Shown here piece by piece: positions 45,443 through 48,464 of a stretch of DNA of 58,144 nt. The stretch covers positions 1-58,144 of the forward strand of contig JAGAYF010000056.1 of assembly GCA_017940605.1 (NCBI GenBank), given 5' to 3'. The notes beneath the pieces were generated by a model, which saw only the letters and a list, made by a program, of their open reading frames with translations, ran no database searches and was not told the origin of the DNA. Numbering within the stretch: position 1 is the first letter of the stretch; every line of letters starts with the position of its first letter. The DNA is from Bacteroidaceae bacterium (GTDB lineage Bacteria; Bacteroidota; Bacteroidia; Bacteroidales; Bacteroidaceae). Both the position numbers and the translations under genes were made by a program.

Positions 45443-45799
45443 CTACTCTACGAGAATATCCTTTACGACATCATCAAAATGGTGCTTCGCCCATTCTATC
45501 AAGGAATTGATAGAAGGCATCAGCGACTTACCCGTATCTGTTAAAGAATATTCTACTCGGGGTGGGACTTCTGGATACACTTTCCGTGCAACAAGATTGC
45601 TGTTCTCCAAATTCTTTAATGTGGCCGACAACATCTTTTGGGAGCAGTCCGACATATGGCGACGCAATTCATTAAACCGTAATATGCCTGTCCCACTGGT
45701 GTACAATGAATATAAGACCAACATGGACCATTTGTCGCCGAAACGGCTGATGACCTGCCTGATAGGACAGGCCAAATACTCTGCTTTGATATCTGTCAT
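45443..45799 (-). CDS. HxlR-family transcriptional regulator
   Basis: 118 residues from the ATG at 45799 (GTG possible at 45805). Winged helix with CPIRQVISRFGDKWSMLVLYSL (about 11-32), GILRFNELRR and MLSATLKNLE, VEYSLTDTGKSL. Cys11 is at the position of the redox-sensing N-terminal Cys of YodB/QorR-type members; a second Cys lies in SDCSQKML. It likely senses electrophiles or oxidants and controls the divergent reductase gene and itself. Confidence 0.93.
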   Translation of the reverse strand: MTDIKAEYLACPIRQVISRFGDKWSMLVLYSLYTSGTGILRFNELRRHMSDCSQKMLSATLKNLENSNLVARKVYPEVPPRVEYSLTDTGKSLMPSINSLIEWAKHHFDDVVKDILVE

Positions 45800-45815
45800 A
45801 TTCACTAATTTTAGG

Positions 45816-45823
45816 CAAAGGTA
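45816..45823 (-). promoter_or_regulatory. hxlR −7 box
   Basis: Minus-strand TACCTTTG, with only about 11-17 bases before the start codon. Confidence 0.5.
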
Positions 45824-45829
45824 GAGAAA

Positions 45830-45925
45830 AGTTACCTAGTATGGAGACATTATACTATGATAATTTAAGTTAAATCTTATTTTTGCAATTTCTTGCTACT
45901 CAACAATTCCTACTTTTCGGTAACT
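45830..45925. promoter_or_regulatory. Candidate HxlR operators in the divergent region
   Basis: Two symmetric signals. TAGTAT (45837-45842) and ATACTA (45852-45857) form a perfect inverted repeat with a 9-base spacer, next to the hxlR promoter. AGTTACC (45830-45836) and GGTAACT (45919-45925) are inverted copies 82 bases apart. Either could be the binding site; this is inference. Confidence 0.4.
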
Positions 45926-45945
45926 ATTCCACGAAAAAGTATCTT

Positions 45946-45977
45946 CTTGTAAAAAAGAAAAATACATTGTACTTTTG
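45946..45977 (+). promoter_or_regulatory. Promoter of the NmrA-like reductase gene
   Basis: −33 CTTG (45946-45949), 20-base spacer, −7 TACTTTTG (45970-45977). Leader about 40 bases to the ATG at 46022. Confidence 0.75.
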
Positions 45978-46021
45978 CATCGTTTTAATACAGAAAATTA
46001 AGTTTAACTATAAAAAAAATT

Positions 46022-46681
46022 ATGGCAAAGAATGTCTTATTAATTGGTGCAACAGGTTTCGTAGGTTCAGCTATCCTGAACGAGTTGGTAAATCGCGGCC
46101 ACAAGGTGACGGCAATAGTACGTAATGCAAAAAGTCTGGCGGACAAACAAGATGTCGAGATTGTTGTAGCTGATGCAACCAATCCTTCAGAGCTAAAGCG
46201 TCTGGCCAAAGGCAAGGATGCAGTCATTTCGGCCTATAATCCTGGCTGGAAAAACCCTCACCAGTATGAAGAAACGCTGGAAAACTATCCTAAAATCGTA
46301 GAAGGTGTCAAGCAAGCAGGAGTCCGTCGACTGCTCATCGTAGGTGGCGCAGGCACTCTCTTTGTCAAGCCAGGTGTTCGTCTCATTGACACTGGCACAC
46401 TTCCTGAAGCATGGTTGCCTGGCGTAAAGAGCCTTGGGGAATTCTACCTGAACACACTGACGAAAGAGCAGGATATTGACTGGATATTTTTCTCTCCTGC
46501 CGGCAATCTTGGCAACATGACAACAGGCGTGCGCACAGGCAAATATCGTCTTGGTAAAGATGACATGCTCTTTGACGAAAAAGGTGAGAGTTTCATTTCC
46601 GTTGAGGACTATGCAGTGGCAATGGTTGATGAGTTGGAGCAAGAAAATCACCATAAGGAGCGTTTCACAGCAGCATACTAA
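46022..46681 (+). CDS. NmrA-like NAD(P)-dependent reductase/epimerase
   Basis: 219 residues, atypical SDR. The Rossmann loop is LLIGATGFVGSAILNEL (6-22), then VTAIVRNAKSL and VVADATNP for the cofactor, KDAVISAYNPGW, and RRLLIVGGAGTLFVKPGVRL. It lacks the YxxxK of classical SDRs. Its divergent HxlR partner suggests a role in quinone or electrophile detoxification. A tall hairpin (46719-46759) separates it from the macrodomain gene. Confidence 0.9.
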   Translation: MAKNVLLIGATGFVGSAILNELVNRGHKVTAIVRNAKSLADKQDVEIVVADATNPSELKRLAKGKDAVISAYNPGWKNPHQYEETLENYPKIVEGVKQAGVRRLLIVGGAGTLFVKPGVRLIDTGTLPEAWLPGVKSLGEFYLNTLTKEQDIDWIFFSPAGNLGNMTTGVRTGKYRLGKDDMLFDEKGESFISVEDYAVAMVDELEQENHHKERFTAAY

Positions 46682-46718
46682 TCTATATTGAGACCTCCCT
46701 TACAACTCTTATGTAACT

Positions 46719-46759
46719 CAGGAAGATTGTCTTCGCTTCATGCGAAGACAATCTTCCTG
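46719..46759. terminator. Perfect 18-bp hairpin after the NmrA-like gene
   Basis: CAGGAAGATTGTCTTCGC (46719-46736) is matched exactly by 46742-46759 around a 5-base loop. A-run rather than T-run follows on the plus strand, so it may attenuate rather than fully terminate. Confidence 0.6.
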
Positions 46760-46811
46760 AAAAAACAGAATTCAGACCGCTCTATACCATCCATAAACAG
46801 AATGAAGGAAC

Positions 46812-47582
46812 ATGAATCGCGCAGAAAATCTTGATTATATCCTGAGACAACTGATGACCGATGTCGGCAAGCAATACGCCTTACCTGCATCACTCTCAGA
46901 CAAACAGCGGATGATGCGTGCATTAATGAACATACGTCAACCCATTCCCGCTTCCCAGGAATTTCTTAAAGCCCAAGATTGGGAACTCCAGCGGCAAACA
47001 GAGGAAAAAGGTGTGGTTTCGCTTGACGGAGAAGGAATACTTCTATGGCAAGGTGACATTACTCGCCTTCAAGTTGATGCCATTGTCAATGCAGCCAACA
47101 GCCAGATGCTCGGTTGCTGGACACCTCTTCATCAATGTATAGACAACTGCATCCACTCAGCTGCCGGCATCGAACTTCGACAGGCATGCCATGAACAAAT
47201 GCAGGCACAGGGACATGACGAACAGACAGGAAAAGCCAAGATAACGCTGGGATATAATCTGCCTGCCAAACATGTCATTCATACCGTTGGCCCTATTATT
47301 CCGCAAGGCATGGTTCCTACCCAGGAACAGGAAGAACTTTTAGCCTCATGCTATCATTCATGTCTCAATCTTGCCGAAACATATCATCTACGGAGCATCG
47401 CTTTCTGTTGCATTTCAACAGGAGTATTCAATTTTCCAAACGAACGTGCTGCAGAGATAGCCCTTGCTACCGTCAGAAAATGGTTCGCTTTGCATCAGAC
47501 ACCTACTATCACTCAAGTTGTCTTCAACGTTTTTAAGGATAATGACCATGAAATCTACCAACGACTACTCACAGAGGATTGA
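46812..47582 (+). CDS. Zinc-macrodomain protein-ADP-ribose hydrolase
   Basis: 256 residues. An N-terminal helical region (1-70) precedes a macrodomain. The ADP-ribose loop and zinc site read VNAANSQMLGCWTPLHQC (92-109): Asn93 and Asn96, with Cys102, His107 and Cys109 as expected zinc ligands, matching the Zn-Macro class found with SirTM in Firmicutes. CIDNCIHSAAGIELR and CISTGVFNFPNERAA (the phosphate loop) follow. It should remove ADP-ribose from target proteins. Overlaps the sirtuin gene by 35 bases. Confidence 0.93.
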   Translation: MNRAENLDYILRQLMTDVGKQYALPASLSDKQRMMRALMNIRQPIPASQEFLKAQDWELQRQTEEKGVVSLDGEGILLWQGDITRLQVDAIVNAANSQMLGCWTPLHQCIDNCIHSAAGIELRQACHEQMQAQGHDEQTGKAKITLGYNLPAKHVIHTVGPIIPQGMVPTQEQEELLASCYHSCLNLAETYHLRSIAFCCISTGVFNFPNERAAEIALATVRKWFALHQTPTITQVVFNVFKDNDHEIYQRLLTED

Positions 47583-48396
47583 ACAACTGGGCCATCTCAT
47601 ATCCAATGCCGACAACATCATTATAGGCGCAGGCTCCGGACTGTCAACGGCAGCCGGTTTGCAATATTCGGGTGAAGAGTTTGAACACTACTTCCATCCG
47701 TGGATAGAACGTTATGGCATCACTGACCTCTACAGTTCCTCATTTTATCCATTCCAAACTGAAGAAGAGACGTGGGCTTGTTGGGCCATGCACATCTGGT
47801 ATGCGCGCTACCGTCCCCATGCCATGCCGCTTTACAAGCAGTTGCTGGATATTGTCAATGGCAAGAACCACTTTGTCATCACCACAAATGTTGACGGTCA
47901 GTTTGAGAAAGCGGGATTCTGTAAGGAAAGGCTCTTTGCCACACAAGGTGACTACGCACTCTTTCAGCCCAAGTCCGGCTATCCTAAAGAAACATGGAGC
48001 AATCAGAAATGGGTGGAACAAGTGCTGCCACTCATAAAGGATTGCCGTATCCCAACAGACATGATTCCGCGTATGCCAGACACCCATGCCCCTGTGGCCA
48101 TGAATCTTCGCTGCGACAACACCTTTGTTGAGAACATTTATTGGCATCAACAATACCAACGTTACCAGAATTTCATAACAGAGTGTTCAGGGAAACGGTT
48201 ACTCCTGCTTGAATTGGGAGTAGGTTTCAATACGCCTGTCATCATTCGGTTTCCGTTTGAGCGCATGGCAACAGAGTGGGAGCAAACAACCCTTGTCCGA
48301 TTCAACAAGAGCGAGCCACAAACTTTCATCAATGGTTTATCCCGCTATGTCGCATTCCAAGAAGATATAGGCACCATTCTGCAGGCAATCAGATAG
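47548..48396 (+). CDS. SirTM-type ADP-ribosylating sirtuin, zinc-ribbon Cys lost
   Basis: 282 residues from the ATG at 47548; AAGGA lies eight bases before it, and an ATG at 47542 is possible. NAD-binding GAGSGLSTAAG (27-37), then TTNVDGQFEKAGF (Asn114, Asp116). The catalytic His-Gly of deacetylating sirtuins is Gln133-Gly134 (ATQGDYALF), the mark of the SirTM class of protein mono-ADP-ribosyltransferases. The usual four zinc-ribbon Cys are missing: PKSGYP (141-146) and MPDTHAP replace the C-x-C segments, though NLRCD and the following core remain. No GcvH-L, LplA or lipoyl target gene is adjacent. A terminator follows at 48433. Confidence 0.9.
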   Translation: MKSTNDYSQRIEQLGHLISNADNIIIGAGSGLSTAAGLQYSGEEFEHYFHPWIERYGITDLYSSSFYPFQTEEETWACWAMHIWYARYRPHAMPLYKQLLDIVNGKNHFVITTNVDGQFEKAGFCKERLFATQGDYALFQPKSGYPKETWSNQKWVEQVLPLIKDCRIPTDMIPRMPDTHAPVAMNLRCDNTFVENIYWHQQYQRYQNFITECSGKRLLLLELGVGFNTPVIIRFPFERMATEWEQTTLVRFNKSEPQTFINGLSRYVAFQEDIGTILQAIR

Positions 48397-48432
48397 TGCC
48401 TATACACAGAATTCATCCTATTCTGCTACTTG

Positions 48433-48464
48433 CTTTCGCACCATGATGGTGCGAAAGTTTTTTT
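48433..48464 (+). terminator. Terminator of the macrodomain-sirtuin pair
   Basis: CTTTCGCACCA (48433-48443) pairs with TGGTGCGAAAG (48447-48457), with seven T bases following. Canonical intrinsic terminator. It overlaps the start of a spurious 67-codon frame. Confidence 0.93.

Follow-up and report, generated by a model that had tools for sequence, protein, structure and literature searches.

Sirtuins of class M (SirTM) have been defined by their phylogeny, by a QG motif and by their linkage to a macrodomain gene (PMC4518038; this and the other papers given by accession below are cited from part of their text). In extended SirTM operons, the enzymes act on the lipoylated protein GcvH-L (PMC4518038, PMC11490716), and Zn-Macros, the macrodomains of these systems, have been described as the sole known hydrolases cleaving Cys-ADP-ribose (PMC11490716). 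Zn-Macro/SirTM pairs are also found outside the GcvH-L/LplA2 operon, as "independent operons" (PMC4518038) or as a "minimal operon" (PMC11490716); the macrodomain of such a lone pair does not demodify SpyGcvH-L, and the targets of these pairs are presented as an open question (PMC11490716). The pair described here lies in a 58,144-nucleotide stretch of DNA from a Bacteroidaceae bacterium (GenBank assembly GCA_017940605.1, contig JAGAYF010000056.1; the whole stretch is called the window), next to a gene for an HxlR-type regulator and a conserved 41-bp element. A first reading, made from the sequence alone (the sequence-only reading), took it for a reduced, "minimal" dyad with an unknown target. 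The pair itself is genuine, but lone pairs are already in print, so a dyad with an unknown target is not new, and "minimal" does not fit: the pair forms the distal end of a set of genes linked to HxlR, and the element also precedes small redox-type genes across the family.

Altogether, the locus is best explained, with a probability of about two in three, as an HxlR-linked thiol/electrophile-stress operon carrying a member of a zinc-free SirTM clade. The regulator probably binds the 41-bp element and would control rightward transcription, putatively as a single transcript, of an NAD(P)-binding redox-type protein, the Zn-macrodomain and the sirtuin, with thiol or electrophile stress as the likely inducer. 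SirTM would transfer ADP-ribose from NAD+ to a protein, from which the Zn-macrodomain would remove it. The sirtuin belongs to a Bacteroidaceae clade that has lost its Cys4 site and kept the surrounding module, including the catalytic Arg188, under purifying selection; the zinc-free module would then have to be held together in another way. This explanation is built, at the level of sequence, on gene content, catalytic and zinc residues, clade-wide loss of Cys, selection, the element with its recurrence before redox-type genes, and the absence of matches to GcvH, LplA and LipB models. Below, L-numbers denote individual sirtuin or SirTM loci and G-numbers genomes, G000 being the assembly of the window (2.01 Mb, 73% complete).

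A class M sirtuin without zinc ligands

The best PDB matches of the window sirtuin are SpySirTM (5a3a, E 1.8e-39) and a macrodomain-SirTM fusion (8rsn, E 5.1e-18), while the Pfam SIR2 model gave no match to it at E up to 1. Aligned to 5a3a, its Asn114, Asp116, Gln133 and Arg188 correspond to Asn118, Asp120, Gln137 and Arg192 of SpySirTM. All four are invariant in 45/45 aligned class M sequences, as is the QG (Gln133-Gly134) that replaces the catalytic HG, and GVGFNTP at residues 224-230 fits the class M motif GVGx[NT]TP; the catalytic residues of SpySirTM and this motif have been described (PMC4518038). The protein thus combines QG, Zn-macrodomain linkage, the Asn, Asp and Arg residues and GVGx[NT]TP with the loss of the four-Cys zinc site of the small domain, a general sirtuin feature that is present in SpySirTM. 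Its putative activity is that of a protein ADP-ribosyltransferase without deacylase function. A scan of contigs gave 66 loci, 56 of class M (L034-L089) and 10 with HG-type sirtuins (L090-L099); QG was seen in 55 of the 56 (the L087 sequence does not cover the position). Among 399 genomes of the family, 24 have a SirTM match, which in some cases is a fragment or a distant tandem sirtuin.

Other sirtuins were met along the way. The window's assembly also encodes an ordinary SIR2-family sirtuin (G000:C38:14390-14911; Pfam SIR2, 140.7 bits). Two closely spaced sirtuin-like genes, with no macrodomain match, occur at L134:3673-5434 (G337), L135:3990-6689 (G324) and L136:3532-5119 (G148), the first gene of each tandem having QGDW and TTNQDAQ. 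Near the L134 tandem there are also a Lactamase_B_2 protein (Pfam), a cupin and a further HxlR-like gene, and near that of L135 cupin and HxlR-like matches.

At the four zinc positions, the window SirTM has P141, Y145, M176 and T179. In an alignment of 54 class M rows, all four zinc Cys are missing from 20 of the 22 zinc-free rows and present in 32/32 zinc-type rows; the other two zinc-free rows, L047 and L048, retain only the third. Exact duplicates, L059 (a near copy of L058, with four Cys), 11 HG-type rows and 8 tandem-sirtuin rows were left out, as were the fragmentary or broken L025, L026, L027, L032, L049, L084, L085, L087, L088 and L089. Of these fragments, L049 and L027 appear zinc-free and L084, L085, L088 and L089 zinc-type; the excluded tandem-sirtuin row L019 has Tyr at the third zinc position. 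A local sequencing error was considered as the cause of the missing Cys and is ruled out because the loss recurs in 21 further rows, 19 of them with none of the four and 2 with only one. In a tree built without the zinc columns, the 20 zero-Cys rows form one group (UFBoot/SH-aLRT 98/97), which L047 and L048 join with weak support (81/28); a quicker tree with these columns kept gave an SH-aLRT of 99 for all 22 zinc-free rows. Loss of the Cys is a trait of a Bacteroidaceae clade, whose SirTM proteins are predicted to be free of zinc, and which represents a novel SirTM variant. The sequence-only reading had reported the SirTM marks Gln133, Asn114 and Asp116 and the loss of all four zinc Cys, both borne out here, and had asked whether the Cys-less form is a clade, which the trees answer.

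The dN/dS ratio is 0.088-0.16 over the whole SirTM gene and 0.045-0.20 over residues 140-192 (11 pairs, several near synonymous saturation), and no stops occur in the 21 zinc-free sequences used. The zinc-module region of the clade is under purifying selection; the low ratio over residues 140-192 indicates that the module is kept under constraint though its metal ligands are gone. This argues against the idea that the window SirTM is a decaying or inactive copy, as do the catalytic residues, invariant in 45/45 sequences, and the overlap of the macrodomain and SirTM genes in 15/22 zinc-free loci examined. Broken copies do exist (internal stops in G223:C58, one TGA in G164, fragments in G392:C7 and G072:C10), as if the SirTM gene were being lost in some genomes, and SirTM was found in 0/18 other genomes of the genus; even so, decay is extremely unlikely to explain the copy in the window.

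Three residues could have taken the place of the lost ligands. Cys166 is present in 22/22 zinc-free and 18/32 zinc-type rows, Cys189, directly after the catalytic Arg188, in 19/22 and 1/32, and His at position 200 in 19/22 and 4/32, so that zinc might be bound by Cys166, the newly gained Cys189 and His200 instead of by the Cys4 site. Such a displaced metal site is quite unlikely, since Cys166 is common in zinc-type proteins too and common descent by itself might account for the column pattern.

The partner macrodomain

The macrodomain is closest to a Zn-Macro in the PDB (8rsi, E 1.7e-82) and matches the NCBIfam model NF003163, "protein-ADP-ribose hydrolase", with 344 bits (cut-off 272). In place of the glycine-rich catalytic loop it has a zinc-binding Cys-His-Cys loop, Cys102, His107 and Cys109, the site that the sequence-only reading had named; the loop LGCWTPLHQCIDN aligns with LGCFIPMHNCIDN of 8rsi. 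Zinc-dependent hydrolysis of protein-ADP-ribose is its putative function. A macrodomain match was found in 16/18 other zinc-free loci, L037 and L049 having none. The tight arrangement described earlier, with a 35-base overlap and one shared terminator, was exact in its coordinates: the genes overlap at 47548-47582 and are followed by a hairpin with a T tail (Table 1).

Linkage to an HxlR regulator and a shared promoter element

The gene divergent from the operon matches the Pfam HxlR model with 103.4 bits (cut-off 20.8) and HxlR in the PDB (7bze, E 7.7e-23), with further matches to YybR, YodB and QsrR, and is the sole HxlR gene found in its assembly. In DUF24 regulators, an N-terminal Cys senses oxidants and electrophiles, and HxlR of Bacillus subtilis senses aldehydes through this residue (PMC6943732, PMC7835342). 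The N-terminal Cys (Cys13, counted from GTG) is present in 32/32 HxlR sequences of SirTM loci that cover the column.

Linkage was assessed by tblastn in the window and 18 named zinc-free loci, up to 6 kb on each side, and in zinc-type and HG-type loci. HxlR matches occur in 11/19 zinc-free loci, 22/38 zinc-type class M loci and 0/10 HG-type sirtuin loci; at 33/57 class M loci, HxlR is the most frequent of the neighbour families compared outside the pair. By the Pfam model, a total of 16 HxlR genes was counted in about 49 Mb of sequence from 16 Bacteroidaceae genomes (none in G164, G208 and G269), which gives, for this family, a background of about 0.004 expected per 12.8-kb locus. HxlR linkage is seen in Bacteroidota, Bacillota and Actinomycetota and in one record from Pasteurellaceae, and the orientation of the linked HxlR genes varies (same strand in L063, L064, L067 and L069; 3' of the pair in L047, L066 and L080).

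The other neighbours are of recurring kinds. The nearest relative, L034, has cupin, PNPOx-like, macrodomain and SirTM genes in this order, and L035 has NmrA, PNPOx-like, macrodomain and SirTM genes consecutively, overlapping or a few bases apart. In G064, HxlR is divergent from NmrA, PNPOx, MBL-like, macrodomain and SirTM genes ("MBL-like" being a label based on a weak NCBIfam match alone, E 1.7e-4). In zinc-type Bacteroidales, HxlR is followed by NmrA (L051), a cupin (L074) or neither (L075), and then by MBL-like, PNPOx-like, macrodomain and SirTM genes. The same kinds of neighbours thus occur with both forms, and the zinc loss brought no visible change of context.

The 41-bp element adds a second kind of linkage. 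A first pattern of 30 fixed bases, from which the window differs at 3, was found with 0-3 mismatches in 12/18 zinc-free loci scanned (window included, without L049); of the others, L039, L040 and L043 are incomplete upstream. A loosened pattern, CCTACNNTTNGGTAACTATNNNACNNNNNNGTRNCTTCTTG, allowing up to 3 mismatches and fitted to the window, has one match in the window's genome, that of Table 1, and 40 sites in 35/399 genomes of the family; the reversed pattern, used as a control, has 0 in all 399. In 16 genomes scanned with the loosened pattern, 10 sites lie in 8/16, namely 7/10 zinc-free, 0/3 zinc-type and 1/3 carriers of broken or partial SirTM. Five of the seven zinc-free carriers (G000, G347, G355, G359 and G403) have the element before the pair's own operon.

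Genes downstream could be counted at 33 of the 40 sites. The first matched gene 3' of the element is a cupin at 26 sites (two of them 35-39% alike, some broken), NmrA-like at 4, MBL-like at 2 and PNPOx-like, followed by macrodomain-SirTM, at 1. HxlR is present at 24/33 of these loci and divergent at 23. A TAnnTTTG box, the consensus of the -7 box in Bacteroidota, starts 20 bases after the element at 32/33 sites and 19 bases after it at the remaining one. The most telling case is G359, in which the SirTM operon and an HxlR/NmrA pair about 1.5 Mb apart both carry the element. With no SirTM match in 27/35 element-bearing genomes, the macrodomain-SirTM pair seems to be an optional extra in a regulon that was already in place.

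These data bear on the possibility that the locus is an ordinary stand-alone SirTM/Zn-Macro pair, for which the HxlR linkage and the zinc loss have no meaning, the zinc module being a mere scaffold from which the metal drifted away. Lone pairs are known (PMC4518038, PMC11490716), and the neighbour kinds common to zinc-type and zinc-free forms fit this view. It is nevertheless rather unlikely, though a plausible minority reading, because the HxlR linkage exceeds the background measured in Bacteroidaceae and is seen in several phyla, and because the promoter element is common to the pair and to unlinked redox-type genes.

Several observations weigh against an HxlR-linked stress operon. SirTM loci were the source of both the element pattern and the accessory-gene queries, and a looser pattern was needed to fit the window, so that the element and gene counts are not blind. 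No HxlR match was found in 8/19 zinc-free and 16/38 zinc-type loci (several of them incomplete), and two zinc-free carriers, G164 (81% complete) and G208 (93%), gave no HxlR match in the whole genome, G164 nonetheless having the element. In G064 and G164, the element precedes a separate cupin rather than the pair; among the 10 zinc-free carrier genomes scanned, G019, G208 and G339 have no match to it, and at the locus level it is absent from L048 and L080 and degenerate in L038 (7 mismatches). The best matches in the zinc-type Bacteroidales L051, L074 and L075 have 9-11 mismatches of 30, which, together with the 0/3 zinc-type carrier genomes, indicates that the element is not shared with zinc-type Bacteroidales. 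Some loci have an incomplete or damaged pair: no macrodomain was matched in L037, that of L050 and that of L080 are each broken up between reading frames, and the internal TGA of the G164 SirTM match belongs here as well. Finally, a 130-bp gap with a strong hairpin parts the NmrA gene from the macrodomain gene, so a single transcript is not certain. The gap has a fold z-score of -6.42, its 19-bp hairpin is followed by an A run with no T run on the + strand, and no TAnnTTTG box was found in it; the hairpin is a possible processing or attenuation element.

Candidate targets of the putative modification

GcvH (PF01597) and LplA/LipB (PF21948, which, from its name, we presume to cover both enzymes) have no match in the window's assembly at its 73% completeness, in agreement with the earlier remark that gcvH-L and lplA are not present. 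The suggestion to look for these genes elsewhere in carrier genomes gave a divided result: neither was matched in 7/10 zinc-free carriers (G000, G064, G164, G339, G347, G355 and G403), and both were matched in 3/10 (G019, G208 and G359). G064 is 99% complete, five of the seven negative genomes are at 81-85% and the window's own is at 73%, so that G064 alone is firm by itself. Lipoylated GcvH was rejected as a general target on these grounds, and lipoyl-GcvH as a target is unlikely in most carriers, judging from the genes that they encode.

By analogy with GcvH-L in the extended operon, the co-encoded PNPOx-like protein might be the target of ADP-ribosylation. A PNPOx-like gene lies near the pair in 3/19 zinc-free and 8/38 zinc-type loci, and in L047 between the macrodomain and SirTM genes. 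Full PNPOx genes, however, are found in G064 and G359, G339 has a contig-edge fragment and a weak match, and the remaining 7/10 zinc-free carrier genomes, that of the window included, have no match; PNPOx genes also lie 3' of the element in genomes without a SirTM match. A universal PNPOx-like target is not supported, and this explanation is very unlikely for the locus.

Since Zn-Macros have been described as cleaving Cys-ADP-ribose, the boldest candidate would be HxlR, or the thiols of proteins in general. The pair might write and erase ADP-ribose on such thiols, perhaps on that of the sensing Cys in its own HxlR, such that NAD+-dependent S-ADP-ribosylation would reset a thiol-redox switch, and zinc-free SirTM would have dropped its Cys4 site to keep working under the inducing thiol stress. 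This is a long shot, and the HxlR context shared by zinc-type SirTMs counts against zinc having been dropped to survive thiol stress.

Whatever the target, the locus is informative in two ways. It comes with a prediction of the inducing stress, on thiols or by electrophiles, which would be sensed by an HxlR-type protein and has a defined DNA element, and it occurs in genomes that have no detectable lipoylation enzymes and so exclude the known target. The zinc-free clade is also a natural experiment on the role of zinc in class M sirtuins, because its module retains the catalytic Arg but not the metal ligands. Carriers of the zinc-free pair are gut and rumen Bacteroidaceae.

Locus organization

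Table 1. Features of the HxlR-linked macrodomain-SirTM locus (positions in the window)
Feature	Position	Strand	Remarks
HxlR/DUF24-family regulator	45443..45805	-	divergent from operon; Pfam HxlR and PDB HxlR matches
conserved promoter/operator-like element, 41 bp	45909..45949	+	TACY-n4-GGTA core; end at putative -33 TTG
putative -7 box TACTTTTG	45970..45977	+	fits TAnnTTTG
NmrA-like NAD(P)-binding protein gene	46022..46681	+	first gene 3' of element; Pfam NAD_binding_10 2.7e-28
perfect hairpin, 19 bp	46718..46760	+	within 130-bp gap preceding macrodomain gene
Zn-macrodomain gene, putative ADP-ribosyl hydrolase (eraser), 256 aa	46812..47582	+	Pfam/NCBIfam/PDB matches; zinc motif
SirTM gene (class M sirtuin), putative ADP-ribosyltransferase (writer), 282 aa	47548..48396	+	ATG start at 47548
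intrinsic terminator 3' of SirTM	48432..48464	+	hairpin, 12-pair stem, T tail

The four genes have a G+C content of 0.44-0.475, compared with 0.53 in the flanks, and the 41-bp element, like SirTM, was found in 0/18 other genomes of the genus. Horizontal acquisition of the locus in this genome is likely. A plasmid origin found no support, 45443-48464 having no megablast match in the plasmid collection. A scan for sigma-70-type promoters gave 8 sites, against 7.0 in shuffles, and was not used.

The NmrA-like protein is 94-95% identical to the copies at L035:4161-4820 and L050:1170-1826 despite a dS of 1.65-2.15, and is far more conserved than its neighbours. At L036:4399-5271, a 291-amino-acid protein with a lipoprotein-like start has no Pfam match and a weak NCBIfam match to the MBL fold; proteins of this type are found repeatedly close to the macrodomain gene in loci of Bacteroidota and in some of those of Bacillota. 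At L059:6870-7883, SirTM is followed by a gene for a DUF1848 protein (345.5 bits), and related open reading frames occur in 11 other Clostridia SirTM loci (L054, L056-L058, L060, L063, L064, L067, L069, L076 and L077), the exact position relative to SirTM having been established for L059 alone.

Comparison with known systems

In the literature searched, with subscription papers and supplements outside the search, the HxlR linkage, the promoter element, the regulon and zinc-free SirTM were not found in print. Queries for HxlR with macrodomain, Zn-Macro in Bacteroid-, HxlR with ADP-ribosyl operons and SirTM in Prevotella returned nothing. As far as the partial texts go, HxlR and sirtuin appear together in work on Treponema denticola alone, where the two are treated apart, and sirtuins are said to lack zinc binding in the FAM118 work alone.

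Among described systems, the extended SirTM operon of Lactobacillales and Staphylococcaceae (GcvH-L, LplA2, OYE, LLM) shares with the window a writer/eraser pair placed by redox enzymes and a theme of oxidative stress, whereas the locus described here has no GcvH-L or LplA2 in the operon or matched in the entire assembly, other redox-type genes, and an HxlR context. Its sirtuin resembles SpySirTM and SauSirTM in QG for HG, the catalytic Asn, Asp and Arg, GVGx[NT]TP and the linked Zn-macrodomain, and differs from them in having no Cys4 zinc site, GcvH-L or LplA2, HxlR-linked accessory genes replacing OYE and LLM. The macrodomain shares the Cys102-His107-Cys109 motif with the MacroD-type Zn-Macro subfamily (8rsi, 5kiv, 8rsl) and is similar to 8rsi over residues 1-253 of 256; no difference in sequence stands out, and the distinction is in its partner, a sirtuin without zinc Cys. 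The SIR2_2 sirtuins ThsA and FAM118B also have a sirtuin fold without bound zinc, a state predicted for the window SirTM, but they are without the entire module (PMC12700824), whereas the window SirTM, within class M, retains the module and has lost only the ligands. Like the thiol-sensing regulons of the HxlR/DUF24 family (HxlR, YodB, CatR, HypR, QsrR), the locus has a divergent regulator with a conserved N-terminal Cys and small redox-type genes adjoining; unlike them, its linked genes, putatively under HxlR binding, include an ADP-ribosylation pair.

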